64,000 nt of DNA, taken from NCBI GenBank assembly GCA_031213475.1, contig JARUPZ010000019.1, positions 5,187,896 to 5,251,895 on the forward strand. Direction: 5' to 3'. The translations under genes and the position numbers were made by a program. Origin of the DNA: Nereocystis luetkeana. Taxonomy: Eukaryota > Sar > Phaeophyceae > Laminariales > Laminariaceae. Positions 1,991 through 63,545 of the stretch are shown here, piece after piece (positions within the stretch are counted from its first letter, which is position 1; the number at the start of each line of letters is the position of its first letter). Under the pieces are notes generated by a model. That model saw nothing but the letters and a program-made list of their open reading frames with translations, was not told the DNA's origin and did not search any database.

Positions 1991-2149
1991 CGTACATTTC
2001 AAGATATCAGTGCATACGGATTATTTTGTTTCGTGAAACGTTTTTTAATGATTTACATCTGAGCACACGGGCTAGGCGGTATCAAAATGTCCTGCGTGCG
2101 GACTTGAAGTACAAAGCTAAAGTTGAGGTGTCCCGCCCTTTTCTGTTTA

Positions 2150-11045: not shown

Positions 11046-11740
11046 CGGGGTGTGAAACCGTTCTCGATACCCGACGACATCCAGCACAACAAAACTTATC
11101 AGGAGACAGCACTTTCACCCCTTGACAGATAGCAACTTTGCCTTGACATACCTTGACTGACACCAAACTACGAGGTTTTAGTGTGGAACACTCGGCCCTA
11201 CGCCCTTGACAGCACATATTTTGTGTGGCTTGACATGTCTCCTGACATCTTTGAGCACAATCAGTGTCGGTGCCGATTATTTTTCTTCAGTCCTAGAGAG
11301 GTACCGGATACAAGCTCTGTGGTCACAAAACTGCGATACAGAGATCCTACTTCGTGACCAGTGTGCAGTACTCGTACGTAAGAAGAGTAGACCCTACACA
11401 CACACGCCATGCCATCGTACTGGATACGACAGGCACGACATACACATTCAAGCATGAGTTGAAAGGGAGAAACACGGAAAAGAAACAACGAGTAAAAAAA
11501 AAAAAAGAAGACTGTCGTGCCCCCCCCAACGGAGATGTGGCAGACAATACAAAACAAGCGAAAGAAACAATACCACTCCATGTAAAAACACATAGGCAGG
11601 TTGTACAGCACATACTGCTACCAGGCCTATCAATGGTTCACACGCAAGCATGCATGCCCCATCTTGCGTTCATCGGTGGCTGCAGGCCGTCGTTGTGGTA
11701 AAGCTGCACAAAACTGCCTAGTTGTGGTTCTCGTTTTTGG
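11046..11740. other. Unassigned spacer
   Basis: Frames on both strands at 11206-11701 have no recognisable content. A poly-A run lies at about 11495 and a C-run at 11521. Confidence 0.4.
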
Positions 11741-16784: not shown

Positions 16785-16983
16785 GGTCGGTGAAATTGTG
16801 AGCAGCGACCTGCCCCCGATGTGGGTGCCGCTTGCGTTGGGGGTCGCGCTTACGGCGGGCATCAGCCTCTTGCAGGGGAGCTTGGGCGACGTCATGAACG
16901 ATGAGGCTAAGCTTGGGAGCCTGTCGGGCGCTAGGGCAGCCAAGCAAAGCGCTCGCGACCGTAACATGTTCAAGAAGAAGTAG
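16785..16983 (+). CDS. Terminal exon of a small single-pass membrane protein (possibly plastid)
   Basis: Follows a good acceptor (TTGATTGCAG) and runs to a TAG stop at about 16981-16983, encoding about 65 residues. These are a short polar lead, one hydrophobic helix (M-W-V-P-L-A-L-G-V-A-L-T-A-G-I-S-L-L), then G-S-L-G-D-V-M-N-D-E-A and a basic tail ending R-N-M-F-K-K-K. The layout resembles small nucleus-encoded plastid membrane proteins of stramenopiles, but I do not recognise the family. It could be read alone from the Met near 16819, though the splice signal argues for upstream exons that I could not find. The longer minus-strand frame across it (16717-17145) is a shadow. Confidence 0.6.
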
Positions 16984-26453: not shown

Positions 26454-26686
26454 ACCCAACAAAAGCAAACAGCAGCGGCCCGTGGCCGACTCTGTTTGTC
26501 GCTGGACAAAGATACAGCGACTCAAGCACTGCCTCGGAGGACCACGGTGCGGAGTGCGACGGGCACCAACAGCTTCGACCCGCCGTGTTCCATTCCGCGG
26601 TTGGGCACATCAACTACGGTGTAGGCTTAGAGCTCGGGGCAGACATCAAGATTCCTGGAGCATGCGAGGTCAATCTTCCTATCGAT
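26454..26686 (+). CDS. Adhesin-like gene, exon 1 traced (tentative start)
   Basis: The end is good: C-E-V-N-L-P-I-D followed by the donor GTGAGT, phase 0. The preceding I-N-Y-G-V-G-L-E-L-G-A-D-I-K fits the D-L-D-Y...L-x-L-N-G part of the repeat. The start at TTATCAG is a guess, and a neighbouring frame also shows a repeat-like T-G-T-N-S-F. Confidence 0.45.
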
Positions 26687-29600
26687 GTGAGTTCGAGTAC
26701 GAGTACATACTGACGAAAAGAGTTCGTAAAAGTACCCACAAGAGGGGGGGGGGGTTACGTAGTACGTGTTCGTGGTGTTGATCCTCACAGGAGATGCGAT
26801 GGCGTGTTGCCTGCCAGTGCCAAGTTCTAAACCAAACTCCATCAAGAGAGCAGTCTATTTATTTCAGAATTCCAGGTTACCAGGTACCAGGGTATGCACG
26901 AACGTGCAACAGCGCTGTGCTATTCCGCTTTGTCCGGCCATGTGAAGGGCACGTTGTTGGTATTCACACTAAATATTCATACATTTCCGGAAGTAACGTG
27001 TACGAGTAGTGATACTTCAGCTGACTCGCATCTGGTACATATGAATTGAATTAAACAAAAAAACGAAGCTGTGAGATAACACGTCCGTCCGATTCGACGC
27101 CAATTCGAAACGAATGGTGCAAAAACAGCATTTGTACGCACCGTGCTCTGCCGTGTTGCGCCTCGCGCCTCGGCCGTGGGGTTGCGCTATGTCGCAATTT
27201 GCATTTTCGCAAGCACGATACGCTGATTGGGTACGAATATGGAGCTAAACACGGAGTTTTCCTGACCTACAGGTACCCGCTCGCGAGCTGGGAATCGATG
27301 CGTCTGCTGCCCTTCCTGTGATCGAGGTATCTTCATCCGAGTTGGATGGCAATTACGGAGTGGGAAGCGAGATCACAATTAGTGTCAGGCAAGATCAAAC
27401 ATCAAACAAGAAATATTTTTATATTAGCGTTCAACTGCGGTATAAATACCTAACTCATCGAAAGACCTCCAGCCAACCCCGAGACGCGACTGCCTCGCTC
27501 TTGTGAAATGATGAGTAAAGACTGCGATACAGGCGTACCTGAATATACCGCCGAGCAAGCACGGCCTGCGGGGACGTAATGTCCTCGTGAAGAGCACCAA
27601 CAGTACATACACCTGTACATACGTAGTCACTTCCAAGAGGCCAAGTACTCTAGAGCATTTGAGGAGGAAACAATACTATGCGCGCTTCGACACGAAAGAC
27701 CCCATGGAACAAGAAGAAATACGGTGGCCCTCAAAACGCGACATTGTATCATAGGGTTGATAAAGTCTAAACACCAGCCCCATACATGTCTTTACGTCTT
27801 CTAGGTTTTCGAGTATCGTTAGAGTGGAGGGGTCACCAACGCTGAGGCTCCGGACGGGTTGCCACGAGGACTCGTGCCGCATATCGGAGGTTCAGAGTTT
27901 TGTATGCAGGTGCGAAAAAGGATTTATCACTGACACAATGTTGCTTGGGTACACTGTTTGGTTTGGCGAATTAACCTCTGACAACGTCGAAACATGCAAT
28001 TAGTGCCCCCATCGAATGGTGCATTTTCCCGACGAACAAGATGCGCCGGTCAAGTACGTGAGAAGAGACAGCAAATCGATGATCTGGAGCATGAGGTCGG
28101 CGACGTCGCGAGGCGATACACCTGGCGGCACATCTTCGTGTGTGTCGAGCTCACGGCTGAATGAAGCGCATGAAGCAGTAGTAAGGAAGGGACCAAACCG
28201 GCACTGCGTGAGCTTCTGTACTTCTTGTTGTCTGATTCGTAGTGTCCACGTGTAATCTGCTTCTGCCTTACAAGTTAGAGGTGTGGGAATGGGTTGTGAA
28301 ACGCCGCATCTTCGGATCCATTCTCCAAATTCTACGGATGGGTTTGGTTCGTGCCTGCGTTGTCTATGAATATACGGCCCTTCAGGGTGGGCTAGTCTTA
28401 TGGTATCCCCTCTCTCCTGTTGCGGCATTTTGATTTATAGCAAGCGCCCCCTCATCGTACCTGGCAGGCGTTATCGCCTGCCTTACTGATGAATGGCTCG
28501 CCCCTTTGTTCAGAAGGCATCTGGCGAGGCAAGCAGCAACTAATGCAAGATCCTATATCGTCAAGCACCTTGTGTGCGTGACCAGAGCAGAGCCAGAGGC
28601 ACACCCGCTAGCATTAGTCGGTCCCTAGGTTCATATTGCCCTTACACTTGACACTTCCACTCGAAAGCTAACGCTTCTTCCTGTCAACTGCGTATCATTT
28701 GTGGGGCAAACATGAGCAGACTCTCCCGATCGTGTGGTTGGAGGTACGAACCCGCGCCGAGGCAGTGGTAACCGGGTCACGGTTTTGATTTTCGAGGTAG
28801 TAGCAGAGGGTTGACCTCTAGATAAGCCCCCGAGGAGAGACAACGAACGCGTGCGAAAAGAAGACGGCGCATACTGGGACATGGTATCCTCATCATGCTG
28901 GGAACGGCCGATCCTACCAAGCGACTACTGCTGTACAGTACAACTTACGTTGCACTCCGGACACGTCTCCTATGTTCCGGCAGCTCGGGCTGCTTGGTGC
29001 GCGGCCGATAGTAGACTTATCATGTATCTTCGGCCCTTTTTTCCCGGTCAAGACCCAAAGGAGGTATATGACAGCGAGTCTGTCACGCACACACAAAGAA
29101 AAGTCGAGTGCGTCGACGCTTTCACCGATTTGCAAAACCTGTTTCAGTCGCAGCAGCTGCGTGGTCCCCGCCCCCCCCGTATCGCGGGCCCGGAAGTCAT
29201 CCCGTAGCGCCATCCTTAGCGCCGCTGCTCAAAGAATCCCCCTCGGGAAACGATGAACCCCAACAAAAGAAACCAGCGCAGCTTTCTCGTCCGGTAGACC
29301 CTGTCCCCGTAGATGGTTTTGCCAGGGATTTAGCTTTGTCTCTCGTTTCCACGTGGCCGAGCGTTGCGTCAACCACCCGACTAAAAGGTGAGATGATAAT
29401 AGGTATTAATAGACGGTTTATAAGTAGCCCAAGCGGGGTATGAACTTGACAATGCCACGACTTCGCAGCACCCCGACCCGCGCTTGGACCGGAACGTAAG
29501 ATCACGTAGACCTGTTGAAACAACAGCCCCTGCAGCCACCTGCCGTCGATGCCGAATTTGGAACCACAGCTAATCCCGCGCCAGTTTCTTCCCTATCGCG

Positions 29601-32600
29601 TTGTTGGAGGTGTGAACACGCGCCGAGGCTAGTGGTAGGAGATCGCGGTCTCGGGGCACCAACCGAGGGTTACCCTCCAGATTATTTACGCCCGTAAAGC
29701 GCAGGCAACAAAGATGCGTGCACAAAGCTGGTGCATATATTGTGCATGGAACTGGCCCAATCTTATTAGTCGAGCTTGAGGGGTCTTCGTTTAATGCCAG
29801 ACCCTCTTTTCCTCGTGTTTTCGCGTGTTTTCTGGTGGTTAGGGCTACAAGGGGAGAGTTCGCTATCAGCTTCAACGGCGAGACCATACCGAACGTCGAC
29901 GCGGGTGCATCAAAGGCAAGCATGGAGTACATATAGGGCATTGAAAGGACACTCGCACCGCCACCCTGGAGCTCCTTCATCCTGACGCTCGCTTACTCGT
30001 ACTGCTCGCCTGCTTGGTTCTCCCCGTAACTGCAGCTTCCACAGCAAACATTTTGACCGTCCTGAGGTACCCCCGCCTGGTCACCGAAAACCCGACGTTC
30101 TCCGTCTCGGCGTTATATGAGTAGGAATACGAGGGTCTATGGCCATACGACTACAGCCATGCATGATATCGAGTACCCCCCCCCCTCTCCGCTATATACT
30201 ATATAGGCTGGGTTGGAGTTGGTTGGCAACGACATTGTAAGACATGCCGCTCACTACTTGAGCTAGACAACCAGGGTGCCGTTTTATTATTTTGGTGATC
30301 GGTCTCAGCTATTTGTGCCGGGCGGAACAGCCTTCACTCTGCACACGGGGAATGATCGTACCACGTAGTGTTTACTTTTTTATTTTGTTATCCTGCGGCG
30401 GATTGGTATATATAAAGCTTAGGCTCAACATTGTAAGGCATCGACGAGGCAGATACATAGTACCCCCATTGTTGTCTCTGGAAGTGGCCACGCCGGAAAA
30501 CAAATTAAATCATTGAAGCTGCTATCCATGTGCAAATCCGCCTCACAAGCGGCTCTTAGTAGGATGAAGCTCACCCTTCATGCGACTCGCCAAACACATC
30601 ACGGTGCTTCGCGCTTGGTGCACGCAATGTCAGTCTGGTCGGCGGAAACCAGAGGTGCTCCATGCCGGCATTGTAGAGATGCGAGAGTCTATGGTCATAC
30701 GACTACGGCCATGCATGATATCGAGTATACCCCCCCCTTTATTCTCCCTCCTGATCTACCACTCTCTCTCGAAGTTTACGGACCGCTTGTATACTAATAG
30801 TTAGTTAAAACGGCCCTTATGTTCAGGGAAAGAGTGATATAGTACTGAATACTACCAGGTATAGGTCTTCTTGCTCAGCGATTGTATTACGATAAAATAA
30901 TACGCTCGTTCACGTGTTTCTTCCTCTCCATTTGCACGCCGAGAAGAGAGAAATGAAGCGCATCATACAGGACTTTTCCGGCGTCGAGCGAGCGGCCGTA
31001 GAGTACCAAACGTGGTCGGCGGCTACTACTACTGCTGCTGCTGCTGCTGCCGGGGGTCTCGGAGCAACTCTCGTTCCGAGCGACAAGGGCGTGTGCTCGG
31101 ACAACGGCACGACGGTCACGGTGACCTTCGAGCGCGTCTCTCTAGAGGTGAGAAACGAAGCATATCATTGCTGTAGTTCATTCCGCAAACGTTGGGTCTC
31201 CGAATAAGGCGTACTTTGGCTGGAATCCACGCTAGTTGGTATTAACGGTTGGGTGGCGAAGTTAGTCAAACTATCTGGCGTACAAAGTAATTTTGGGCCC
31301 CAAACGGGGGACGCAAGAAGAGCATCTCCGGAGTGGGACAAGGCCTGCCGGAAGTGCAGAATTAGTCAGCCAATGGCACTTGCTCCGTCAGTAAACTACG
31401 GCGGCAGCACTAGAAAGGAGGTGCCGCTCAGGGGAAAACAGAGCCTACCTATTTCATTAATGCCAAAACTGGGTACGACTTGAAAGCGACGACGAAATGT
31501 TACTGCAGGTATCAATCAAGGAAAGCATACACTTTGAGCCGCAAAAAAGACGCCAGTCTGATACTACGAAAATGCATCCAGAGCTCAACTCCCAACCACC
31601 GCACGCAACTGACTTTTAATACGTACCTGGTAGTCAACTTATAAATATTAAGAATCGGCGGCTTAGGTACCCAGGCAACTCACAGCCCTGGAAAATACGT
31701 ACGTACTTGAGCCATCATTTGTGTTTTAGCTGTGCGATATACTTCTGTAGGCCGCGTAGCAGATGAGAGACGAGGGTATCACTCGCACACGTTCGTTCCG
31801 TTCATTCAGTGCCAATAAAGCGTATCGCAAGTGTTCTTGATGAGTTTCGGCCATTTTTTTACCTGCCACAGGGAGATGACGGTGACTTACCGATGCTCGA
31901 GCTCGACTACCTGAATGCGCCCGTGAACAGCTACACCGGCATGAGCTGGGGAGGTGACAGCCGCTTGTGGTACGGCTGGTTCAACGAAGAGGAATCCGAG
32001 CCGGAGAGAGCGGAGAAGGTGTTTTCACGCCGCGGCGATTTATGTTTTATGAGTGAAGTACTCATGGGCTATAGATATAGATAACGTAGTCTGCATAGGC
32101 CATCTCTTCACATTTACTAGTATAACAGCTGTGCTAACTCGCGGTGTATACGTAAAATAAGCGGTATACTATATATGAAATTCCGCATCATGAAGGAACT
32201 TGACCATTTATTCAATTGTTTCAGCTTCAAAAAGGGAATTCGGGCTAAGGCGACACGCTTGTGGGTTTTGTGCTTCTATATATGCCGTGTCCTAGAAAGC
32301 AATAACTAATCAATCCGCCGAAGTTTACGCGGTTGCCATCGTTTCGGGGGAACGGTTGTCTGTGTCGGTGCTTACTTATACCGCAGGACCTGTCTTTTGG
32401 GGGCTACTACAGGGACGACTTCGGGAAAGCGATAGTGGGAGATGACGGCCTTAACGGCATCGAGCTTGGACCCGCAGTGGAGAAAACGGTTGGGAGTAAA
32501 CCTACCGATCGCCTCGCCACCTACACGGGAGGCACAGGGACCGACACGTTGTCGTTCCTGTACATCGTTCAAGAGGTATGCGTTGTAAGCACGGTCAACC

Positions 32601-56600: not shown

Positions 56601-59600
56601 CGGCGGCCATTTTCAGTGTTCCCCCTCGTCACATTTCCACAAACAAAAATCAAAACGTGGGTGCGGTTAGTTCTACAGGGGTCACCATGCGTGCACTGCC
56701 TGATTGATTCGGCCCACCCTTCTCAATGCTCCCCGTCGCCTCACACAACCCTCTCTCCGCGAACCAAAGATCACCCTCATCGGCGTGGAGAAAGTGACAC
56801 GCGAGGCCCTGGGCAATGGGTTCCGCTTCACCGTCGTCTTCCGTGCAGGGAGTCCTGGGGCTCTTACGTTTCCATCCGAAAACATAACCGAGGTACACAC
56901 ACACGCACGGTGAACGTAAGCTGTGCAGCAGCAACAGTTCTCGTTGACGCCCCCCGCTGGACTTGTGGGTCGTACACTGATTTTCGGACCAGGCATGTCC
57001 GTTAGCCACCTGGTAACCAACATTGATGGCCTTTATATTTACGTGTATACCTGGTATACTTTTGCGTAATAATATCGTCTCCCAAAAGCTACGCAACCAA
57101 TTAATTATTTCACCCAAACTGCTGTGCATGCTTCCGTTCCCGAATTCCGAAAATTGTTCATTTTTTACAACCACGCCCCCTCTATACCTGCATGCGTATC
57201 CCCGAAAATATCAGTTGGTTAATAAATGAATCAAGTGTTACGTGCATCTCCCCTACTCGTATTCACTAAAATGACAAAACGTGAGCTATTTATATGTGGT
57301 AGAAATCCCGTGCAACGATAACGAGGCAGCTTTTAGTCCTGTGGACGCGGAAGCCAAGAAGACGCCACCCCCCCTCAACATCACCCGTGTGATAAAAAAA
57401 AAAGAGAACAACACACCCCCCCTCGGACTAAATTTTTCTGATCCGATTTCCTTGACCACGGGCCGAGAACGCGAAAACGCTGAGCGACTGATAGCTCTTA
57501 TCAACCCCTCTTGGGACGTCAGAGATATATATATATAAAAAAAAAGCATGGCCGGTAAAAATTGACGATCACACCAACTATTGCGGCCACCGCGTGATTC
57601 CGGGGGGAAGGTACAATGGTTGGCGTTCCGAGTGTTATCGCAAGGAGTCCCACGGCATGGGGGCGAAAAATGATCCCACCCGTATATACAATAGTTGAAT
57701 GTTGCTCGTACATGGTTGATAACACCGAAGTTGTCGTTATTTTTGGTCGCTACGGATACATATCAACCATCTCCAACACCCTAACGGATAAATATGGAAA
57801 GGTCTCGGCGACATCTATCCGAAAACCCTGTTTCGGAAAGGCCGTCTCGGAAAATTGGTCCCGAGGGGCACGGGGGGGAGGGGGGGGGGGGGGGGGGCGT
57901 ATTCATTTGTTGCTTGCCTTAGTCACTTGACCATTGACCACGCATTCATCCCTTTCGAGACGGAGCACTGTTTCTACTCCTAAGAGAGACACCTCCAACA
58001 ATGGGGCGCTCATGACGTTGGTTGCATATATTACATAGAAACTATTTGCTAATCTTATCCCCTTCCTGTTTGGCCGCCCATGGCCACCATCTATCTCCTA
58101 GGATAGCGATCGTTTTCTCGTTGCTATCTAGTGTGTCAAACTCCTCCATGTCACATTCGTCTATGTCCCTCATCTCTTCTTCTAACACATCCCGTTCTTC
58201 CTTGTATATTTCACATTCTCCTACTATGTGAGTTCTACTCTCTATGGCTTTGCCACGCGGGCGCGTCTGTGCATCTACTTCCTCCTCCTCCCGGCTACTG
58301 GTAAACCTCTTGCTTCTTTCTGGCAGGTCCAGGTTACCTACACGAAAGCGCAGTTTCAGCGATTTCGCGAAGTCCATTTGTCCGTGCTAATACGTCTTCA
58401 TCCCTATTCCTTCCCTCAACCCCCCGCATATCTCTAAGTGTTTTTCCGATTCCACCGTGTTTCGTAGCGCTAACCTTCCCCTTCTTTCTATCATTTCTTC
58501 TACTTCTGTCTTGTACCTCCCAAACTTCCCTGCGGACATCACCTCTTCTCGGACGGGGGGGGGGGCGAGGGGGGTCGTTATCTTGCGTGGTATACCGTAT
58601 AGACCGACGGATAGCGAATAATCTATAAACAAGAAGATAAGTCTCATTTTTCCCAAGAGCGAGATGCCGAATATGTGTATCGATTTGTATATTTGCTGCC
58701 GCGCTGCGCGCATGGAGGGATGGGGGGGGGGGGGGGGGGGGGGGGGTCGAGACTTCGTTGCTCACACTTCGAGAAATAATTGGATTAAATACGCAGTCGC
58801 ACTGAGCGGCGAGCGCTGCACTGAATTCTACCAAGGTACACAAAAGCCTACGCTCGAGGTTGTTCAAGGGTGTAGCGTCACAAAAAAAGGTTTTCAGACT
58901 TGTTCAGATTACGTACGTACGTAGGTTTCTTGTTGACAAACCCATGCTGAAATCAAACAAAATACATTCTACAGCGGTGGTCCCTCGATAGTGCCGGTAC
59001 GATATATATGCACCAGCCAACAACACCTGCACTAAAGCGGTAACCGGCATTACTCAACCTCGACGTGGTTCCCCTCCGGCGTCCCCACCCCTACTTTGCT
59101 CTCGTCGTCAGGGATGCCTTGTGGGCTTCGAGCCGCCCCTAGAGTCATCGGACTTTGCCGTACCAGACACCGAAAGGCTGTCCTTCCTCTACGTTCTGCA
59201 GGTAGGTGTGCTTTGCCGAACAGCAAGCAACGCGTGTGCACGGATTTAACACACGGCGGATAGATCAACTCGCCGTACAGTAGCTCGAGCTACTACTATT
59301 CTAGTCCATTTTGAGGTAGACTTTGCCCCCCTAGTTTTTTTTTTCTTCAGGGGATTTTATTTTTCTTTCTAGTGATCAACGTTGAAGCTCATTCATGCTT
59401 CCTATTGTCGGATGGCAAACGCAACAACAGTAGATCTACGTGACAATCTCTATAAGAGCTTGGTGCATGAGCTACCACACGTTTACTGGGTTCGAGCTAG
59501 AATTACAGTAGGTACAATTCGTAGTTTATCTACCACGTGCATGTGCTTGGGTAGGTGCAAGTGTGAACTTGTATGGATCGTCCGTAGTCCGTCTTGTTTG

Positions 59601-62600
59601 TTATTTTGGGAAGGTTAATTTTCTGAAGAGAAAAAGACGTCGTCGTACTTTGCGCGGTGCCCCCCCCCCCCCCCCCGCCCCGCCGCTTCAGTAGTACCGT
59701 GGTGTGAGCACTTACCAACCACATGGCACATACATTCTTGGGTAGTAGGGTCGACAGGAGCAAAGCCTTCATCTGGTGATGTAGACCTTCAAACAGTTCT
59801 TGCGAAGAAAAGCGTGCCCGTCCACGAGCAGTGTCAACCTCCCGCCAGCGCTGCGTCTTATCGTTTTCGTCTTCGCCCCGCCCGCGCTGCGACGGGGTCT
59901 GGGCAGCCTGGCGACACTTCCGACGCCTTGGGAATTGCCGGCTCGGACGCCCTCGTGCTCAACGGCTCAACCATCCGGAGAGTGTCGACTTTTCCTTCTC
60001 AGGCGGCGAACCTGTCCCTGCTTGGCGGCCGCGGTGGCGACACGGTCGAGACACAAACGTCGGGGCTATCGGGTTTTTCGCTGCGTGGCGGTGATGATGG
60101 GTCGTCGCCGGTGGTGGTCGACTGTTCGGAGGCCCCTGTCGTCGAGAATGTTACGGCGACCGCTTTTGCGGGAGAATACGGCGCGGGACAAAGAATATAT
60201 TTCCAGGTGTGATACGGGGGGGAGTGTAATCTGACCGCCCTGGACTTATGGTGCTCCGTGAATTGTTTTTATTCGCAACTGTATCACCGTAGTTGGGGCT
60301 TTTTTTTGTCAAGAGCATGCGGGGTTCTGATTACTACGTACGGGAGGGGGCATACATAATAATCAGAACCCACAATGGACTCAAAAACCACTTATCCTCC
60401 TATGTTCATGAACCGTACTTGGTTCTGAATACTACAGTGAGTTCCCCGAAATAGCATAGCTGGACTTTTTTGGGGGCTATTTTTTCGAAGATAGGCGGGC
60501 ACCATATTTGGGGTGGGGGGAGGGGTGGGGGGCGGGGCGTACTCGTTTTCTTGCTTGTCTTAGCCATGTGATCATTGACCACGAACCCCTTTCGAGACGG
60601 AGCGGGGGGGGGAGAAGCGTTAGCATTCTCGCTTTGTGCTCCTATACATGTATCAAGTAGATAGCAGAAAAATAAGAAAACACATGCAATAATGGATATA
60701 GGTCTACTGGCGACCCCCCCCCCCTCTCCGCCGTCACGGAGGGCATGTAACGCACGAGGGGTTGGGGTCTAGGAAATGGAGGTGCTCAAAACCAATGACA
60801 GATGGTACGTACGCGATGAGCACACAGAATACCGTATCTTATAAAACCGCCATACCTGGTATTAATAGTACATAGGCCCCGTGTATTCATGGTGACAGAT
60901 GGTACGTACGCGATAAGCACACAGAATACCGTATCTTATAAAACCGCCATACCTGGTATTAATAGTACATAGGCCCCGTGTATTCATGGTCGCATTCACA
61001 CTGCGTGTGAATAGCGCGACCCGCTGGTGATGATGCCGTGATGAGTTGTTCTGCGAGCGTTAATCTGTGGTAAAACAAAAAATAGCTCGATTAGCAATCC
61101 GACAACCTTTTTCTCTCTCTTAGCATACGCGCAGTGACAAAACGAGCTGTTGTGCGGTATAGGCCTTAAAAATAGGACTCTGAACCCGACGAAGGTTAAT
61201 CTGGCACCACGATGGCTGGCTTCGCCAACTGAGGGCCAAATCGCATGTTTCTGTTCGGAAGAAACAGCTTGTTATGTTTTCCACCAGACACTATACTTCT
61301 ATATATATGTACAGCATGAGCTTCAGCGTTGACCAACTCAAAAACACTCCCACGACGAAGAATAAATCTGCCGCATCAAGTCGTCGTCGCTTAAACAACT
61401 CGTACCATAGTTTGGGATTATATCGAGACCTCTCTGATGCGATCAGCCGGAGACTCTCACTGCACTCTGGGCTACTACCCCCGCGTTGACTCCACGGCAC
61501 AAGCAACGCGGCACCTTCGCCGCAGAGAGTAGCTGCTCCGGTGAAATAATTGAGCACCGAACCAGAACAGGTTCCAGGTTCCAGGTTCCACATGAAATCG
61601 CCTACGACATATATATACGTATGTTTATGTATCTAAACTACGTTGACCCGTGTTACGTGCACGCGCACTTCTTGTTACGTATTTTCAATCCGCTTAAAAG
61701 GTCTCCTTCTCCGGCGATGTGATAGTGGACGATGGCGGGTCCCCTCTTGTGCTTCTGGAGACCGGGACGACGGACACCCCCGGGACGTTCTACACAGGGA
61801 ACGGAACGTCCGTGCTCACCTTTCGCTCAACCGTCCAGGTTCGATTGCGTAGCATACACGCAGACATGAGCTTCGTTTTTTTGTTGGGGAGTTTTTTTCA
61901 TGGGGCAGTCAGTATCGGTTCTCTCGTGAGAGAACAGACTATTAAGAAATGTAAGTATCCAATAGCCTGTACGTATCTACATATATAAATATATTTAAAT
62001 GAATGAAATAAAGTAGGTCGCCTACGGTGGGTCGCTCGACGTCTGTCAGATACTGTGAGAAAATCTGCCCCTTTCTCGCTCCGCCAGGTTAAGAATGCTG
62101 AGCTTAACTATTTTAGAGCAAGCTGCTGTCAGTCCCGTTTTGGGGACTAACCAGTCAAATTATAGGTAATGTGTGCCCAAAACAGAACTACAGCTTGCCC
62201 TAAAAGGGTTAATACCTCATTTCAGGTTTGTCACGAGAGGGCCGATACGGCGGTATATGTTAAGCCCTGTGAGCAAGGCCCACGCTCCATTTGTCGCTTG
62301 TAGGGGTTTCACAAATGTGACGGCGTGTTTTTGTGCGCCCTTCAGAAGAGAGCACACGAATGCCGTGCGTGGCTTCTGAATGCACCCTGTATAAGCGCGA
62401 TATGAATGAAGGCACTACTTATATACCAGGGGGGGGGGGTAAGAGACCTGTGACCATGCGCTTTGTTAAGAATGCCGCAAAGGGTTCATGAAACCCCACA
62501 CGAGTTGAGCTGGAAATGAAAATTTGATGTTGTATAATGTTAGCATAGAACGACTACTGTAGCTGGTAGCATGATAGTAGTACGTACGTAGTTTTTCGTT

Positions 62601-63545
62601 TTATGTTTCCAGGCCGTCGCCATAGAAATATATGTACGTAGTCACAAGATGCATCCGTCCCCAACGAAGACATTATCACTGCCGTACTTCCTCTCGTCTA
62701 CCCTAGGAAGCAAGGGCTCGAACAAAAATGGGGTTTGTTTGTGCTCAAGACCCATTTCAACATGCATACGCTTCTTGAAAGATCGATTGATTCATGTTGA
62801 GGTGTTACTAATAATCCACTGGGCTGCATATGAGCTATGATACAGCAGTACAGGTAAAAATATTCCGGTATCATTATTACGAGTAGCCCAACAGAGAAAT
62901 ACCTTCACAAATATCGTCCGCGGCAGGATGAAAAAAATCATTTTTCGGCCGATACAAGCATAAACAATGGCCTCCTGTAACATCTTCTTATCAAGGGGGT
63001 TGACCACAACAACAGTAGAACTAGTCTAGGCCTACCAATCGGCAGCGGGCAGTATCGTGCCGTGTGCTCGTGTGCCTCTGCTCTGCACGCGCAGCTATGT
63101 ATATCGAGCACGAGGTGCTCGAGCGTGACCCCCTATTCCCGCCCTCCTCGCCTTCCACCAGGATACAACCCTTACGCCGGTAAAGCTCATACGTCGGTAG
63201 AGTCCATGGCTATCAAAACAGTGACCTCGAATGGTTGGTAACAAAACTCACGTTTCTTTCTGTACGGTTGACGTTAGAAACGTCATGCTTATCTCTGTTT
63301 TCTATTATTCGCGCCCGCGTCTCTGTATTTTTCGCGTCCCTTCTTTCGTTCCTGACTGTACCCGACCGTGGTCCCTGCTTCCGGCTTGGAATGTTGTTGG
63401 GTATGGGCGGCGAGGGTTATTAGGAGGGCGACTCAGCCGCTTCCTTAGGCCCGTACTCGCGAACCGCTTTCACGAGAAACGGCGGCTTCGTGCGCAGCGC
63501 CAGCTTCCACTCGTCTGTCGACGCCGTGCTTCGTCTCCCCCCCAG
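26454..63545 (+). CDS. Giant multi-exon gene for an adhesin-like repeat protein (spans introns; both ends missing)
   Basis: About 33 exons (listed singly) encode a protein of more than 1,500 residues. It has about 13 tandem Ig/cadherin-like beta-sandwich repeats interrupted by three modules of a second type (G-x-F-x-L-S-Y-G-G, then a V-x-V-x-F half). Repeat landmarks in order are S-S-x-x-D-G-x-Y-G-x-G, F-x-x-P-V, L-x-F-x-Y-x-V-Q, G-D-x-S-x-D-L-D-Y, L-P-x-P-G and S-L-G-x-N. The first type resembles repeats of very large bacterial surface proteins. The second resembles modules in large stramenopile, ciliate and PKHD1-like proteins. Many N-x-T/S sites and no membrane segment suggest an extracellular or wall protein. 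Most junctions are phase-compatible. Exceptions are the first four junctions and 43253/43363. Whether one or more genes are transcribed is unproven. Confidence 0.8.
27273..27388 (+). CDS. Adhesin-like gene, exon 2
   Basis: Acceptor GACCTACAG, phase 0. Encodes G-I-D-A-S-A-A-L-P-V-I-E-V-S-S-S-E-L-D-G-N-Y-G-V-G-S-E-I, an excellent match to the repeat start. The end assumes a GC donor (GTCAG|GCAAG, phase 2). The strand of F-S-x-P-V that should follow was not located. Confidence 0.7.
27533..27622 (+). CDS. Adhesin-like gene, exon 3 (tentative)
   Basis: After GCGATACAG the frame reads A-Y-L-N-I-P-P-S-K...K-S-T-N-S-T-Y-T-C-T-Y, fitting the P-x-L-x-L ... L-x-F-x-Y strands of the repeat. The frame stays open to about 27750, so the end is uncertain. 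Its incoming phase does not fit exon 2, so a short exon may be missing between them. Confidence 0.4.
27623..29281. other. Long intron region, possibly hiding exons
   Basis: The repeat is expected to continue here (G-D-x-S to S-L-G). Minus frame 28000-28428 and plus frame 28851-29207 are protein-like but do not match the repeat. I cannot assign them. Confidence 0.35.
29282..29387 (+). CDS. Adhesin-like gene, exon 4 (tentative)
   Basis: Acceptor CCAGCGCAG and donor GTGAGA are both good. Encodes V-D-G-F-A-R-D-L-A-L-S-L-V-S-T-W-P-S-V-A-S, resembling S-L-G-x-x-x-D-I-V-x-D-T-x-P-P-S-V. Its outgoing phase (1) does not match the next exon (2), so one border is wrong or an exon is missing. Confidence 0.4.
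29852..29926 (+). CDS. Adhesin-like gene, exon 5: start of first L-S-F-G module
   Basis: Encodes G-E-F-A-I-S-F-N-G-E-T-I-P-N-V-D-A-G-A-S-K-A-S-M (reported in short pieces of the second module type). Acceptor GGCTACAAG, donor GTACAT, phases 2 and 2. Confidence 0.65.
30110..30740 (+). mobile_element. Poly(C)-ended retroelement family B, two sense-strand copies
   Basis: A short 3' end (about 30125-30192) and a longer copy (about 30200-30738) each finish with GGCCATGCATGATATCGAGTA followed by a C-run. This is the only place where the family lies in the host-gene sense orientation. The longer copy carries C-K-S-A-S-Q-A and S-R-L-V-H-A-M-S-V-W-S-coding sequence, broken. Confidence 0.7.
30949..31147 (+). 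CDS. Adhesin-like gene, exon 6: middle of first L-S-F-G module
   Basis: Phase 2 in: completes E-E-M-K-R-I-I-Q-D-F-S-G-V-E-R-A-A-V-E-Y, then a Thr/Ala linker (ACT/GCT repeats), then T-T-V-T-V-T-F-E-R-V-S-L-E. Donor GTGAGA, phase 0. The exact acceptor in GCCGAGAAGAG is inferred from phase. Confidence 0.65.
31872..32018 (+). CDS. Adhesin-like gene, exon 7: end of first L-S-F-G module
   Basis: Acceptor CTGCCACAG. 49 codons, phase 0/0, starting G-D-D-G-D-L-P-M-L-E-L-D-Y-L-N and ending in an acidic W-F-N-E-E-E-S-E-P-E stretch. Donor GTGTTT. Confidence 0.75.
32387..32575 (+). CDS. Adhesin-like gene, exon 8
   Basis: Acceptor TTATACCGCAG. 63 codons, phase 0/0, ending T-Y-T-G-G-T-G-T-D-T-L-S-F-L-Y-I-V-Q-E. 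Donor GTATGC falls exactly at the V-Q|G-D point of the repeat. Confidence 0.85.
32576..33128. other. Intron
   Basis: Pyrimidine-rich in its 3' half with CCACCCA repeats at about 32790-32815. No element recognised. Confidence 0.6.
33129..33335 (+). CDS. Adhesin-like gene, exon 9
   Basis: 69 codons, phase 0/0: G-D-Y-S-A-D-L-D-Y-Y-D-E-S at the start, then S-S-L-G-A-N-K-D-L-I-V-D-T-S-P-P-V-V-V-Q at the end. It is the clearest C-terminal repeat half in the window. Donor GTAACG. Confidence 0.9.
33395..33450 (-). mobile_element. Family B retroelement 3' end fragment
   Basis: CATGGCCGTAGTCGTATGGCC beside a run of about 20 G, i.e. the family B end with its C-run on the minus strand. Confidence 0.6.
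33931..34062 (+). CDS. Adhesin-like gene, exon 10
   Basis: Acceptor GGTGAAACAG. 44 codons, phase 0/0: A-Y-G-T-G-E-V-I-V-I-D-V-V-F-S-Q-E-I-V-L-T-G-E-P-T (repeat strands A and B). Donor GTGACT. Confidence 0.85.
34063..35466. other. Intron
   Basis: Besides the degraded MITE it holds a run of about 25 G at 35177-35204. Short frames (34786-35032) do not match the repeat. Confidence 0.6.
34489..34573 (+). mobile_element. MITE-like element, degraded copy
   Basis: TACGGAGGACCCATAG at the left and TTTTTGGTCCTGATTACTGTGT...CTGGTAAT at the right match the family loosely, with internal deletion. Confidence 0.5.
35467..35581 (+). CDS. Adhesin-like gene, exon 11
   Basis: Acceptor TTTTTTTTTAACAG. Encodes N-N-T-I-T-F-T-Y-V-V-Q-D-G-D-S-T-S-D-L-D-Y then A-L-S-L-N-G. 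Donor GAG|GTACAA, phase 1. Reading on past this donor soon meets a stop. Confidence 0.85.
36225..36316 (+). CDS. Adhesin-like gene, exon 12
   Basis: Phase 1 in, 0 out. After a short variable lead it encodes A-S-T-V-L-P-E-P-G-G-T-G-S-L-S-E-N-E. Acceptor CGTGTGTTAG is chosen because its phase matches exon 11. Later AGs at 36247 and 36260 share the phase. Confidence 0.75.
37015..38070 (-). mobile_element. Family B retroelement, two tandem copies (minus)
   Basis: Two copies of about 490 bp (about 37045-37570 and 37575-38060) each read on the minus strand into CATGCATG...TCGAGTACA and a C-run (copy 1). The coding remnant on the minus strand includes L-H-A-T-R-Q-T-P-H-G-A-S-R-L-V-Q-A-M-S. The second copy joins a G-run (38064-38080) and a family 1 SINE tail. 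Confidence 0.75.
38085..38165 (+). mobile_element. Family 1 SINE tail fragment
   Basis: GGCCCCGGACCTGAGATACG...GGGCGGAGATAATGAATGGGACG matches the 3' end of the SINE at 41367-41703. Confidence 0.55.
38332..38438 (+). CDS. Adhesin-like gene, exon 13
   Basis: Acceptor TTACAACATAG. Encodes V-D-S-S-T-A-D-G-E-Y-G-A-G-Q-H-V-Y-I-N-I-T-F. Donor GTGAGA, phase 2. Confidence 0.85.
38506..38830 (+). mobile_element. tRNA-derived SINE, family 2, copy b
   Basis: Most complete copy: tRNA-like head with GGTGGCTCGGTAGGTGATCC (A-box region) and GTGGGTTCAAGTCTCACC (B-box region), body with GAAAATCGACGAGCAGTGGG, and an end GGTGATGATTAAAAAAATAAATTAAA. Lies in the 2.5-kb intron between exons 13 and 14. Confidence 0.8.
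38831..40487. other. Intron interior
   Basis: No further element recognised. Repeated words around 39840-40080 (GAAACCATTCTTTCTACCCCC, AACCATTGTTTTCTACCTCC, AACCATCCTTTCTAACCCC) indicate a decayed tandem repeat of about 95 bp. Confidence 0.45.
40488..40617. mobile_element. Palindromic hairpin element, copy 3 (internally duplicated)
   Basis: AACTCTTTTAGGACCGCAGTCCCG at the left and TGCAGTTTGCCCTGAAAGGGTTAA at the right. The central GGAATCAGTGTTGTT(T/C)GGGGAC segment is tandemly duplicated, lengthening this copy. Confidence 0.8.
40937..41066 (+). CDS. Adhesin-like gene, exon 14
   Basis: Acceptor GCGGCGCAG after a long intron, phase 2 (matches exon 13). Encodes L-L-T-G-E-S-A-E-L-W-L-R-V-G-W and G-T-V-N-D-S-T-W-L-V-L-E. 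Donor GTATGA, phase 0. Confidence 0.8.
41347..41794 (+). mobile_element. MITE-like element, copy 5, carrying a nested SINE
   Basis: Left end TATTACGGGGGACCATAGTA (41347-41366) and right part ATAGGACCTATGG...GGTCCCCCGTAATA (to 41794) are the two halves of one MITE split by a SINE. Joining the halves across a single AGTA gives the uninterrupted family sequence. Confidence 0.9.
41367..41703 (+). mobile_element. tRNA-derived SINE, family 1, full copy
   Basis: tRNA-like head with A-box-like TGGTTCAAGTGG and B-box GGTTCGAGCCC, a body that shares CGATAAAAATGAAGGCACGT with the 25-kb copy, and an A-rich end. The 4-bp AGTA on each side is the probable target duplication. Confidence 0.85.
42242..42336 (+). 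CDS. Adhesin-like gene, exon 15 (tentative)
   Basis: Found by looking for the missing G-D-x-S part after exon 14. The frame reads A-T-L-W-R-E-E-R-W-S-S-D-N-S-I-K-Y then G-I-A-I-D-L-L-P-L, phase 0 in and 2 out, compatible with both neighbours. Acceptor (CCGTGAG) and donor (GTAGCT) are weak. Confidence 0.45.
42420..43035. repeat. GATAGATCATC tandem words and AGATCAT-flanked repeat copies 2 and 3
   Basis: Short tandem words AGATAGATCATCCAC (42430-42515) border two copies of the dispersed repeat (42500-42660 and 42840-43030) that also occurs at 12465: GCAGGA(T/C)CTGTG...CACCCGGCAAC(A/G)TGAGCTAGATCA. Confidence 0.65.
43050..43253 (+). CDS. Adhesin-like gene, exon 16
   Basis: Start GTATGCAAG gives phase 2, matching exon 15. 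AAG|GAG at 43120 is an alternative. Encodes a Pro-rich lead, then G-D-D-I-G-D-T-I-S-V-G-S-T-E-V-T-L-L-N-V and S-E-P-Y-V-G-G-D-V-L-E. Donor GTGAGC, phase 2. The next junction does not keep frame. Confidence 0.65.
43363..43393 (+). CDS. Adhesin-like gene, exon 17 (31-nt microexon)
   Basis: Acceptor CCCCCCGCAG, donor GTATGT. The frame that fits the repeat and exon 18 encodes F-D-V-I-V-S-P-N-V, but it needs incoming phase 1 whereas exon 16 delivers phase 2, which would put a TGA in frame. Confidence 0.55.
43394..44289. other. Intron
   Basis: Contains a C-run of about 27 with single T interruptions (44046-44078) and no recognised element. Confidence 0.6.
44290..44470 (+). CDS. Adhesin-like gene, exon 18
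   Basis: Acceptor TGCTTGCTAG, phase 2 in. Encodes V-P-A-V-N-V-S-S-A-G-Y-Q-A-A-T-Y then F-V-F-L-Y-T-V-Q-P-G-D-H-S-A-D-L-E-Y. Donor CAG|GTTCCT, phase 0. Confidence 0.9.
45056..45297 (+). CDS. Adhesin-like gene, exon 19
   Basis: Acceptor CAACATTACAG. Encodes A-S-L-P-E-P-G-T-C, M-N-R-D-I-V-V-S-T-D-T-P, P-F-G-A-G-D-E-I-D-V-T-V-W-F-T-E-P-V and ends N-A-P-R-L. It spans the end of one repeat and the start of the next. Donor AAG|GTACGA, phase 2. This boundary is the parent of the adjacent minisatellite. Confidence 0.9.
45265..45745 (+). repeat. Minisatellite derived from an exon-intron boundary
   Basis: About 12 degenerate units of roughly 31 bp, consensus near GAACGTCACGAGCGCGCCTCGATTAAGGTAC. The first unit is the last 30 nt of exon 19 plus its 5' splice site. 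Several later units keep an AAGGTAC- or AGGTA-like donor. A GTAT microsatellite interrupts the array. Confidence 0.8.
45363..45430 (+). repeat. (GTAT)n microsatellite
   Basis: About 16 near-perfect GTAT units starting directly from a unit's splice-site-like AAGGTATGT, with one GCAT variant. Confidence 0.95.
45920..46270 (-). mobile_element. SINE family 1 fragment and family B 3' end (minus)
   Basis: GCGGGTAGGCACGATTCAATGCGAGTCGACGG (45936-45967) matches the SINE middle. From 46030 the sequence is family B in minus orientation (GGCCGTAGTCGTATGACCATAG...GCATATGGATGACAGCTTC). Confidence 0.65.
46520..46839 (-). mobile_element. tRNA-derived SINE, family 2, copy c
   Basis: Minus-strand copy: head at about 46839-46755 with GAGTGCATGCTCGTAGGGG and GGTTCAAGTCCCACC on the minus strand, body as in the copy at 38506. 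Confidence 0.75.
46840..47005. mobile_element. Patchwork of family B and SINE family 1 tails
   Basis: 46840-46893 matches family B (TTTAATTTCCGGTGTAGCCAC...GCAATGGGAGT). 46894-47005 matches the SINE family 1 3' part (TACCGTAGG...GATCTCGGATCTGAGTTACGA). Confidence 0.6.
47181..47316 (+). CDS. Adhesin-like gene, exon 20
   Basis: Acceptor CTCCCACCAG, phase 2, joins N-A-P-R-L to R-M-D-T-G-N-F-A-D-Y-A-F-G-S-G-T-N-A-I-T-F-I-Y-T-V-Q-E as the repeat requires. The frame is open further upstream to another AG at 47078, but that would insert about 34 extra residues. Donor GTGTGT, phase 0. Confidence 0.85.
47440..48045 (-). mobile_element. Family B retroelement, short plus long copy (minus)
   Basis: A truncated 3' end (47445-47510) and an almost full copy (47511-48040), each preceded on the plus strand by a G-run of 9-11 and TACTCGATA. 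Confidence 0.75.
48046..48907. other. Intron; possible relic exon
   Basis: At about 48755-48850 a frame reads P-M-L-L-G-S-K-N-G-F-N-V-T-T-L-L-E-A-V-T-I-V-V-N-P-Y-P-G, reminiscent of the repeat end, but its phase fits neither neighbour. It may be a degenerate or alternative exon. Confidence 0.35.
48908..49158 (+). CDS. Adhesin-like gene, exon 21
   Basis: Start tentative (CCGTGGAAG, phase 0). Encodes D-L-T-L-P-E-P-G-S-L-G-S-L-S-N, V-V-D-T-S-V-A-R-V and S-S-L-A-D-G-S-Y-G-V-G-E-E-I-L-L-L-V-T-F. Donor CAG|GTGATG, phase 2. Confidence 0.85.
49180..49342 (-). mobile_element. Family B 3' end (minus)
   Basis: G-run at 49188, GTACTCGATAT, then the family sequence to AAGCGACGTGAGGTGGCGG, where it meets the next element. 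Confidence 0.65.
49343..49580 (-). mobile_element. Non-LTR-like retroelement 3' end, copy 2 (minus)
   Basis: Matches the element at 57.9-58.1 kb: GCTTGCCTTAGTCA(T/C)GTGACC...GGAGACGGAGCACCGTTCCTACTCC...ATCTATCTCCT(G/A)GGATAGC. Heavily truncated and interrupted by stops. Confidence 0.65.
50003..50287 (+). CDS. Adhesin-like gene, exon 22
   Basis: Acceptor CCTCCGGTAG, phase 2 (CCGAAG at 49984 is in the same phase). Encodes A-L-L-N-S-G-G-T-A-F-Y-T-A-G-N-G-T, T-L-E-F-L-Y-T-V-E-E-G-D, then V-T-L-P-K-P-G and N-I-V-I-D-T. Donor GTGAGG, phase 2. Confidence 0.9.
50288..51203. other. Intron
   Basis: Includes GGTTCCTCAACTGAAGAACTACC (hairpin-like, cf. 46305-46330) and one copy of a short dispersed word GAGTGATCAATGTTGAAGCTCAT (about 50720) also seen at 51740, 59375 and, inverted, 42018. 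Confidence 0.5.
51204..51421 (+). CDS. Adhesin-like gene, exon 23
   Basis: Acceptor CTCTTTCCAAG, phase 2. Encodes S-S-L-A-D-G-R-Y-G-P-G-Q-E-V, A-P-V-T-V-V-G-T-P-V-L-W-L-D-L and T-L-V-F-I-Y-F-V-R-E. Textbook first half of the repeat. Donor GAAG|GTTTGA, phase 1. Confidence 0.9.
51422..52548. other. Intron
   Basis: Contains a run of about 18 T (51586-51604) and two copies of the GAGTGATCAACGTTGAAGCT word (about 51620, 51748). No exon or complete element seen. Confidence 0.55.
52549..52742 (+). CDS. Adhesin-like gene, exon 24
   Basis: Acceptor ATACCTGCAG, phase 1. Encodes E-S-T-A-D-L-D-Y-T-S-P-F-A-L, then V-S-L-I-L-P-T-N-G-Q-P-G-S-L-G-I-S-G-N. Donor GAG|GTCCGG, phase 0. Confidence 0.85.
53248..53760 (+). 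CDS. Adhesin-like gene, exon 25: second L-S-Y-G module with acidic insert
   Basis: Longest exon (171 codons, phase 0/0). T-P-P-S-V-E-R-V closes a repeat. Then comes G-G-F-R-L-S-Y-G-G-S-D-N-I, A-V-A-S-A-L-S-S-A-N-S-F-L-N-V-T-V and a R-M-F-V-V-Y-F-H-A-P-E-V half. After it lies a run of about 25 mostly Asp/Glu/Gly residues flanked by four Cys, plausibly a flexible or calcium-binding loop (inference). Donor GAG|GTGCGT. Confidence 0.85.
53761..54708. other. Intron
   Basis: Short degenerate repeat around 54240-54310 and 54570-54690 (CACATTCG(A/G)(C/T)(A/G)CG(C/T)TGTTAACT). No exon recognised. Confidence 0.55.
54709..54908 (+). CDS. Adhesin-like gene, exon 26
   Basis: Acceptor TGCACGCAG. Encodes V-V-L-H-F-T-E-P-I-S-V-N-T-T-L-G-N-P-S-L-L-L-R-V-D, then N-x-T/S-rich sequence and V-D-V-G-V-D-A-S. 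Donor GTGAGA, phase 2. Confidence 0.85.
54909..55698. other. Intron
   Basis: No recognised element. Ends with a CTTGGCCCTTCCAAG acceptor region. Confidence 0.5.
55699..55825 (+). CDS. Adhesin-like gene, exon 27: third L-S-Y-G module, first half
   Basis: Phase 2 in: P-V-T-R-G-H-F-R-L-S-Y-G-G-A-V-S-G-C-M-D-V-N then S-V-K-A-R-L-E-E-L-E-E. Donor GTGGGG, phase 0. Closely parallels exon 25 (F-R-L-S-Y-G-G). Confidence 0.8.
55826..56769. other. Intron with tandem duplications
   Basis: A segment containing ATTCGGC(T/G)GCCATTTTCAGTGT(C/T)CCCCCTCG is repeated at about 56470, 56600 and, more diverged, 56710. The last copy merges into the acceptor region of exon 28. Confidence 0.55.
56770..56892 (+). 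CDS. Adhesin-like gene, exon 28: third L-S-Y-G module, second half
   Basis: Acceptor CGAACCAAAG. 41 codons, phase 0/0: I-T-L-I-G-V-E-K-V-T...G-F-R-F-T-V-V-F-R-A-G-S-P-G. Completes the module begun in exon 27. Donor GAG|GTACAC. Confidence 0.8.
57326..57517 (+). CDS. Adhesin-like gene, exon 29
   Basis: 64 codons, phase 0/0. L-N-I-T-R-V-I-K-K-K...P-L-G-L-N-F-S-D-P-I-S-L-T-T-G matches the F-S-x-P-V-x-V-T-G part with an unusual Lys-rich loop in place of D-G-x-Y-G-x-G. Splice sites (GATAACGAG, GTCAGA) are weak. Confidence 0.6.
57860..58560 (-). mobile_element. Non-LTR-like retroelement 3' end, longest copy (minus), with poly(C) end
   Basis: The minus strand encodes broken but recognisable protein: K-L-R-F-R-V-G-N-L-D-L-P-E-R, S-R-T-H-I-V-G-E-C-E-I-Y-K-E-E-R-D-V-L-E-E-E-M and, downstream, N-G-Q-V-T-K-A-S-N-K before a stop. 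The H-x-V-x-x-C context is typical of the C-terminal zinc-binding tail of LINE reverse transcriptases. Directly after the stop the minus strand enters a run of C (57862-57898). Confidence 0.75.
58561..59111. other. Intron
   Basis: Run of about 25 G at 58721-58746. Minus frames here may be more of the same retroelement, frame-shifted (K-N-E-T-Y-L-L-V-Y-R-L-F). Confidence 0.45.
59112..59201 (+). CDS. Adhesin-like gene, exon 30
   Basis: Acceptor CTCGTCGTCAG. 30 codons, phase 0/0: F-A-V-P-D-T-E-R-L-S-F-L-Y-V-L-Q. Ends exactly at the V-Q|G-D boundary. Donor GTAGGT. Confidence 0.85.
59202..59906. other. Intron
   Basis: One GAGTGATCAACGTTGAAGCTCATTCATGCT word copy (59370) and a C-run (59660-59683). 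Confidence 0.55.
59907..60206 (+). CDS. Adhesin-like gene, exon 31
   Basis: Acceptor GGTCTGGGCAG. 100 codons, phase 0/0: P-G-D-T-S-D-A-L-G-I, D-A-L-V-L-N-G-S-T-I-R-R, A-A-N-L-S-L-L-G, a Gly/Thr-rich insertion, then V-E-N-V-T-A-T-A-F-A-G-E-Y-G-A-G-Q-R-I. Donor GTGTGA. Confidence 0.9.
60535..60606 (-). mobile_element. Non-LTR-like retroelement 3' end, copy 3 (minus)
   Basis: GTACTCGTTTTCTTGCTTGTCTTAGCCATGTGATCATTGACCACG...CCTTTCGAGACGGAGC, preceded on the plus strand by G-rich sequence as in the other copies. Confidence 0.6.
60797..60990. repeat. Recent 97-bp tandem duplication
   Basis: 60797-60893 and 60894-60990 appear identical except for G/A in GCGAT(G/A)AGCACAC. Intronic. Confidence 0.95.
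60991..61700. other. Intron remainder
   Basis: GAGCTTCAGCGTTGACCAACTC (61318) is a diverged copy of the GTTGAAGCTC word family. GTTCCAG(GTTCCAG)n at 61569-61590. No exon seen. Confidence 0.5.
61701..61838 (+). CDS. Adhesin-like gene, exon 32
   Basis: Acceptor CGCTTAAAAG. 46 codons, phase 0/0: V-S-F-S-G-D-V-I-V-D-D-G-G-S-P-L-V-L-L-E-T-G, then Y-T-G-N-G-T-S-V-L-T-F-R-S-T-V-Q. Donor CAG|GTTCGA at V-Q|G-D. Confidence 0.85.
62103..62212. mobile_element. Palindromic hairpin element, copy 4
   Basis: CTATTTTAGAGCAAGCTGCTGTCAGTCCCGTTTTGGGG... and ...CAAAACAGAACTACAGCTTGCCCTAAAAGGGTTAA are the two arms. The outer arm differs slightly from copies 2 and 5. Confidence 0.75.
62395..62530 (+). mobile_element. 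tRNA-derived SINE, family 2, truncated copy d
   Basis: Only the 3' part is present: GAAGGCAC...ACCAGGGGGGGGGG, GACCTGTGACCA and GAGTTGAGCTGGAAATGAAA correspond to the end of the copy at 38506. Confidence 0.5.
62531..63423. other. Intron
   Basis: No recognised exon. The minus frame at 62792-63007 is not supported. A pyrimidine-rich stretch begins near 63250. Confidence 0.5.
63424..63545 (+). CDS. Adhesin-like gene, exon 33 (last in window)
   Basis: Acceptor GGTTATTAG, phase 0: E-G-D-S-A-A-S-L-G-P-Y-S ... N-G-G-F-V-R-S-A-S ... A-V-L-R-L-P-P. Donor CAG|GTAATG, phase 2, so the gene continues past the window edge. Confidence 0.8.

Follow-up and report, generated by a model that had tools for sequence, protein, structure and literature searches.

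A predicted giant kelp gene with an exon-split array of Ig-like repeats of the bacterial giant-adhesin type

We analysed a 64,000-nt stretch of Nereocystis luetkeana DNA (the window; C19:5,187,896-5,251,895, + strand) and the sequence on either side of it; all positions are given in window coordinates. A type III polyketide synthase exon of the same genome agrees with PDB 4b0n, the Ectocarpus siliculosus enzyme, in 87 of 91 aligned positions (E 9.3e-53; next best 3.6e-23), which points to a brown alga as the most likely host. An Ig-like repeat array, which is split into exons and lies only on the + strand, runs from about 27.3 kb to about 109.6 kb, and additional + strand exons follow the array up to about 126.7 kb. 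Because the window end cut the array, which reaches 45 kb beyond it, the array is approximately twice the length that was visible to the first-pass annotation. The gene end placed there at 63,545 therefore has to be moved: the array goes on to about 109,590 and the exons to about 126,660.

Exons were assembled with a gene finder based on simple dynamic programming, which uses codon usage, splice-site matrices and a profile bonus. The first gene model, with 643 exons, was far too lenient and was superseded by stricter models. The spliced model comprises 66 exons from 27,273 to 126,658 (12,461 coding bases, 4,153 aa) and is free of stops. The median exon is 153 and the median intron 1,218, the exon-end phases 0/1/2 are distributed 44/8/14, and the G+C content is 0.605 in exons versus 0.490 in introns. 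This model is not independent evidence, because it was trained on the profile matches and stops were forbidden by the method. Weakly scoring exons are located at 40,937, 55,729, 56,770, 59,112 and 109,852-112,197. As judged from the model, the locus is an intron-dense, nuclear-type gene, as had been proposed; the predicted gene would span roughly 100 kb with dozens of exons.

Within the window, the model has 26 exons, to which one probable small exon (27,805-27,857) can be added; thirty-odd had been counted before. The gene start had been placed at 26,454. However, the exon at 26,473-26,686 scores -1 in the model, and the first supported exon begins at about 27,273. A crude search of 17.2-27.27 kb for a signal-peptide exon gave one poor candidate. 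The features in the window are as follows.

27,273-27,388, +: first supported exon, start of a repeat (AALPVIEVSSSELDGNYGVG...; profile E 1.4e-5 and gene model); its donor is uncertain (27,359 or 27,388).
27,805-27,857, +: probable small exon continuing the first repeat (FSSIVRVEGSPTLRLRT; profile E 0.0038), present in the lenient model and absent from the stricter ones.
30,971-32,018, +: two exons (30,971-31,147; 31,872-32,018) from the gene model, with no profile match of their own; by eye, the remainder of a very diverged repeat.
32,387-33,335, +: two exons (32,387-32,575; 33,129-33,335; E 4.5e-6 and 2e-10), which read ATYTGGTGTDTLSFLYIVQE|GDYSADLDY...LGANKDLIVDTSPPVV across the junction.
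33,931-36,316, +: a single repeat in three exons (33,931-34,062; 35,467-35,581; 36,249-36,316; E 1.9e-12, 6e-12 and 0.078).
38,332-38,438, +: exon VVRPTTANVINVDSSTADGEYGAGQHVYINITF (E 2e-9).
40,937-43,253, +: exons 40,937-41,066 (weak, score 3) and 43,120-43,253 (moderate, score 16), with no profile match.
44,290-44,470 and 45,056-45,297, +: two exons with the end of a repeat and the start of the next (E 5e-14, 0.013 and 1.2e-8).
47,181-50,287, +: exons 47,181-47,316, 48,908-49,158 and 49,985-50,287, the end of a repeat and then a whole repeat (E 2.2e-11, 3.6e-7, 2.4e-9 and 5.9e-23).
51,204-52,742, +: exons 51,204-51,421 and 52,549-52,742, one complete repeat (E 3.2e-22 and 2.9e-9).
53,248-53,760, +: second-type module (STGGFRLSYGG...DAVASALSSANSFLNVTVV...) and acidic tail in one exon (leave-one-out E 2.3e-9, 0/500 shuffles).
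54,709-54,908, +: exon from the gene model with a diverged repeat piece (VVLHFTEPISVNTTLGNPSLLLRV), assigned by eye.
55,703-56,892, +: second-type module (HFRLSYGG...VKARLEELEE...RFTVVF) in exons 55,703/55,729-55,825 and 56,770-56,892 (leave-one-out E 1.9e-13, 0/500 shuffles), which score just 1 and 2 in the exon model.
59,112-60,206, +: exons 59,112-59,201 (weak, score 3) and 59,907-60,206 (score 50; profile E 0.0015 and 6.1e-5), the end of a repeat and the start of the next.
61,701-63,545, +: one repeat in exons 61,701-61,838 and 63,424-63,545 (E 1.4e-11 and 8.9e-5); the gene continues beyond the window.

Several other features were observed around the array. A well-scoring + strand exon at 16,786-16,979 (VGEIVSSDLPPMWVPLALGVALTAGISLLQ...SARDRNMFKK) perhaps belongs to an unrelated upstream membrane-protein gene. 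Imperfect tandem repeats at 1,500-3,650 and 9,700-11,100, which are open in several frames on both strands, are likely minisatellites. Long + strand exons are present at about 138-143 kb, and we take them to be reminiscent of IPI1/TEX10-type ribosome-biogenesis proteins. A modelled intron contains a dispersed element (28,220-28,454), for which at least 39 other long genomic matches of 82-87% identity were found when 40 of 570 candidates were scored.

The array was delimited by profile searches. In six frames of the region from -10,000 to 224,000, the repeat profile gave 47 matches with E<1, every one of them on the + strand, which span 27.3-109.5 kb. This profile was made from 11 bacterial repeats and the 8 rows of alignment A1, which are repeat pieces taken from window reading frames, so that it includes window pieces. 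A profile from the 11 bacterial repeats alone marked 38 stretches on the + strand of the same locus and none on the - strand; these repeats had originally been retrieved with the A1 profile (22 matches in 8 loci, 11 of sufficient length). When the bacteria-only profile was compared with the final algal model, 27 stretches were matched (E<0.05), or about 22 repeats by our count, and no stretch was matched in the reversed model or in 20 shuffles. The earlier gene model likewise gave 27 stretches, with 0 in the reverse and 3 in the shuffles. The one-strand matches, the shuffle controls and the reverse control rule out a chance pile-up of motifs. Bacterial contamination is also ruled out, because the locus lies in a 10.8-Mb contig and an intron carries the dispersed element that has 39 further long genomic matches. 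Thus, the adhesin-like, many-exon repeat gene described by the first-pass annotation is borne out and is larger than was stated. The estimate of about 13 repeat copies in the window was near but somewhat high: 10 of the 27 stretches start in window exons, and the very diverged first repeat comes in addition.

The repeat is also found elsewhere in the genome. A search with the consensus as the one protein query, in which 31/31 candidates were scored, gave 21 matches; 19 are at the present locus (C19), all on the + strand, and the other two are at C23:1.808-1.814 Mb. The 9-kb stretch around the latter (C23, 1,806,001-1,815,000) contains a second exon-split array of the same repeat, with pieces 29-50% identical. 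The genome thus carries at least two loci of the Ig-like repeat, and their copies have diverged.

Relatives of the repeat are found in bacteria. In tblastn, the majority consensus of the window pieces matched 22 plasmid records (best E 4e-29, 53.5% identity); among the 11 records with a coverage of 80% or more, its identity is 43-54%. Azospirillum, Agrobacterium, Sinorhizobium and Niveispirillum make up most of the hosts, and the groups matched are alpha-, beta- and gammaproteobacteria and Persicobacter; where annotated, the matches are Ig-like, cadherin-domain, DUF4347, VCBS or autotransporter-type proteins. A real repeat, joined by hand from 51,204-51,421 and 52,549-52,742 and one residue longer at each end than the modelled exons, matched 15 plasmid records, the best in Kosakonia cowanii (E 7e-12, 36% identity over 99%), and others in Azospirillum, Niveispirillum and further plasmid-borne proteins. 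A shorter real exon was weaker as a query (best E 6e-3, 10 records). In the genome-contig collection, two of the 202 pattern stretches are relatives, one in a Spirochaetia MAG and one in a Planctomycetaceae MAG. An Ig-like beta-sandwich fold is predicted for a bacterial relative.

Type I-secreted adhesins are expected to have TolC and HlyD neighbours. A TolC gene adjoins the repeat in 4 of the 13 fetched plasmid stretches (Kosakonia and three Azospirillum), and three of these four also have HlyD-type genes. Among the other nine, four have no annotation, in four the gene runs off the end, and the annotated Agrobacterium stretch has neither neighbour. Two Marinobacter phage records match the repeat (E 2e-7 and 3e-8), as do two PHROG families of unknown function when the consensus is used (phrog_30287, E 4.7e-13; phrog_11617, E 1.4e-4). 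The repeat thus also occurs outside cellular genomes. Among viral contigs, none of 27 pattern stretches was a relative.

Domain collections gave no name for the repeat. None of the eight A1 rows matched a Pfam family at E up to 10, a range in which the HMMER filters drop most matches above 0.1. No Pfam model, those of the Big_* and cadherin families included, was matched by the algal pieces tested or by the Niveispirillum copy, NCBIfam was matched by none of the consensus, the Niveispirillum copy and the Spirochaetia copy, and the A1 profile matched no sequence in the PDB. By sequence comparison, the algal repeat is homologous over its full length to the Ig-like repeat of bacterial giant adhesins, for which the tested copies matched no model in Pfam or NCBIfam. 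The likeness to repeats of giant bacterial surface proteins, noticed at first from motifs, thus corresponds to homology (E 7e-12 with 99% covered for the joined repeat; E 4e-29 for the consensus).

In an unrooted, short tree of 58 repeats (15 from C19, 2 from C23 and 41 bacterial), the smallest group that contains all 41 bacterial repeats includes one algal repeat (C19_2051, exons 75,569 and 76,126) with support 83. The unrooted tree gives no direction of descent. We regard a bacterial origin of the repeat as likely. Another explanation is that the repeat was present in a common ancestor and was lost from, or is unsampled in, other eukaryotes, with no transfer from bacteria. The high divergence of the algal repeats, their many introns and the presence of diverged copies at two separate loci, C19 and C23, would suit such an ancestry. 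However, the repeat is scattered over several bacterial groups (alpha-, beta- and gammaproteobacteria, Persicobacter, Spirochaetia and Planctomycetaceae), and the kelp genome, which was the whole scope of the eukaryotic search, shows it at two loci only, at the sensitivity of one query with 31/31 candidates scored. We therefore regard ancient shared ancestry as rather improbable, at about one chance in four, and prefer acquisition from bacteria.

The intron positions bear on the growth of the array. In the final model, both flanks of 38 of the 65 junctions could be placed on the repeat profile. Among these, 14 junction pairs have exact position and phase in common versus 2.8 expected, a number reached in 1 of 20,000 runs, and 20 pairs lie within one codon versus 8.3 expected (25 of 20,000 runs). 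The earlier model gave 17 identical pairs versus 2.8 expected (0 of 20,000 runs; 40 of 55 junctions mapped); it held two GC-donor junctions, which were altered in the final model, and the final result is weaker. The recurrent places in the repeat are 72-75 (after F-x-Y-x-V-Q), 30 (before V-x-F) and 11, and two junctions in the C23 array seem equivalent by eye. Many intron positions are not common between repeats, and the junctions are derived from the model. Since recurrent positions point to duplication of intron-bearing units, and hence to growth in a eukaryote, this result suggests that introns were already in place when much of the array expanded.

The array is accompanied by a second module, located at 53.3 kb, 55.7-56.9 kb, 67.2-71.5 kb and 114.0-117.7 kb. 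Leave-one-out profiles recovered all seven second-module rows (E 2e-9 to 1e-16; 0/500 shuffles each). The second module type of the first-pass annotation is thus real, but the regular alternation with the Ig-like repeat does not hold, as two copies stand together at 53.3-56.9 kb. Other genes carry the module too, namely at C2:20.435-20.446 Mb and at C24:9.769 Mb (E 2e-5 to 0.035), with weaker matches elsewhere; the stretch C2:20,444,700-20,446,100 belongs to an open frame of 1228 aa in which the module is found several times. When built from three C2 modules alone, a profile gave a clear match only to the copy at 114.0-117.7 kb (E 9e-18), and for a piece of a window module it gave E 0.022 while shuffles reached 0.003.

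The profile of the second module (A4) matched the whole chain of the phage tail-tip cage protein gp23 (PDB 9d93) with E 2.8e-18, and three tandem copies in gp23 were matched at E 0.0003-0.009 each; a single C2 module matched gp23 at E 4e-8. Two PHROG tail families were each weakly matched by two of the seven rows, and A4 also touched the major capsid protein 9d9w (E 0.014) and two unlikely chains (E 0.09 and 0.23). With tblastn, one second module found no plasmid record and another no phage record, and searches of Pfam and NCBIfam did not name the module. Its AF2 model (mean pLDDT 55.5) was too poor for a structure search. Entry 9d93 is not named in the available part of PMC13033339. Judged by these profile matches, the nearest solved relative of the second module is gp23. 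The combination of a bacterial-surface repeat and a phage-tail-type module in one algal gene is absent from the first-pass annotation.

Downstream of the array, the exons at 112,848-119,822 resemble the F5/8 type C domain (PF00754, E 6.1e-6, 26.8 bits, cut-off 28.2) and the NedA-like domain (PF22633, E 7.5e-6, 26.9 bits, cut-off 27.8). F5/8 type C-like domains often bind sugars. By eye, a second module sits between the two halves of the F5/8 type C-like domain, and this insertion may lower the score. Of eight matches in the kelp genome, the five to the F5/8 halves all lie at this locus, and the three on C2 and C24 cover the second module.

The array is separated from the F5/8 C part by low-complexity G-T-S-V-S-E-G-type repeats at about 109,592-110,607, which could form a spacer or be non-coding altogether. 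The exons of the locus could instead belong to at least two neighbouring genes, such as one for a repeat protein (27-109 kb) and one for an F5/8 C protein (112-127 kb). Such a division would agree with the VSEGG-type stretch (109.6-110.6 kb) and the weak exons between both parts, and with the finding of neither a start nor an end for the giant gene. Nevertheless, both parts are on the same strand in compatible reading phases, which the gene finder enforces, and the second module occurs both in the array (53-57 kb and 67-71 kb) and in the F5/8 C domain. We consider two or more genes a serious possibility, at somewhat worse than even odds, and proceed with a single giant gene.

Evidence that the exons encode a protein comes from potential N-glycosylation sites (sequons, N-x-S/T, where x is not P). 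The model protein has 74 sequons versus 34.7+-5.2 in shuffles, and 0 of 2,000 shuffles reached 74. The 17 algal repeats have 39 versus 18.0+-3.7 expected. In contrast, the 41 bacterial repeats have 54 versus 58.5+-6.4 expected, and 531 non-exon frames of the locus have 210 versus 207+-13; 20 long bacterial frames show a small excess (529 versus 477+-20). At alignment position 62 (the G-N-G-T turn, trimmed alignment), a site is present in 7 of 17 algal versus 3 of 41 bacterial repeats. Because the excess is missing from the non-exon frames and the bacterial repeats, a real protein routed through the ER is the most likely product of the exons. The sequon excess thus provides independent evidence for a real and probably secreted protein. 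The model protein is also strongly acidic (net -338). A pseudogene or a relic of a bacterial insertion might be suspected from the long introns, one of which contains the element with 39 other long genomic matches. However, the strong sequon excess in the exons is missing from non-exon frames, and 4,153 aa can be read without a stop, although the gene finder avoids stops by design. We regard a pseudogene or relic as very improbable and retain a real, probably secreted protein.

We propose that the protein enters the secretory pathway and is N-glycosylated and acidic. Its repeats would form a long, Ca2+-stiffened rod, by analogy with the extender arms of bacterial adhesins, and the rod would hold carbohydrate-binding heads, on its C-terminal side, in the wall or matrix. 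Cells might thereby be linked to the polysaccharide wall, to other cells or to other surfaces. The repeat would have been acquired from bacteria, and the array largely expanded in the algal lineage once introns were present. For this whole account, namely a giant repeat gene, a secreted Ca2+-stiffened wall or matrix arm, a bacterial repeat and expansion after the introns, we give a probability of about 60%. An extended cell-surface or matrix arm is the most likely function. The earlier suggestion of a wall, adhesion or recognition molecule fits the sequon excess, the acidity and the downstream F5/8 type C-like domain. That the protein instead belongs to flagellar hairs (mastigonemes) or serves in gamete recognition seems unlikely to us. 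A more specific scenario is offered tentatively, as somewhat less probable than its opposite: an adhesin extender repeat of bacteria was captured in the lineage of the brown algae, split by introns, amplified along with these introns to at least about 22 copies, fitted with sequons for secretion and joined with phage-tail-type and sugar-binding-type modules into a giant extracellular-matrix protein. We recognised no account of the algal protein in the open-licence literature; brown-algal genome projects may well list a gene of this sort under a general name. The protein is a candidate link between cells and their walls of alginate and fucoidan, and the locus offers a testable example of how a multicellular eukaryote may have adopted a surface repeat from bacteria.

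Finally, the locus can be compared with known systems. The algal F5/8 type C-like domain differs from the F5/8 type C or NedA-like galactose-binding domain in being interrupted by the second module, and it scores just under the cut-offs. The similarity of gp23 to the algal second module lies mainly in the first half of the module. With regard to the Pfam Big_* domains, the Niveispirillum repeat (residues 1458-1581 of the frame) directly precedes a Big_13 domain (1588-1684). The giant plasmid proteins of Azospirillum, Niveispirillum, Kosakonia, Sinorhizobium and Microvirga resemble the algal protein in having several copies each and in being mostly very large; however, their genes have no introns and their repeats no sequon excess, whereas the algal gene has both. 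By eye, the bacterial repeats often have an I-x-D-x-x-G-N turn where many algal repeats have an R-x-S-T-N-P-T type stretch; the algal repeat at 76,141-76,386 retains the bacterial-like DEAGDVANVTLP. Further points of comparison are the LapA-type extenders and region II of MpAFP, the ice-binding adhesin of Marinomonas, in which, according to the available part of PMC4083281, Ca2+ lies between the domains of an extended rod. The repeats of MpAFP are identical copies, whereas those of the alga are strongly diverged.
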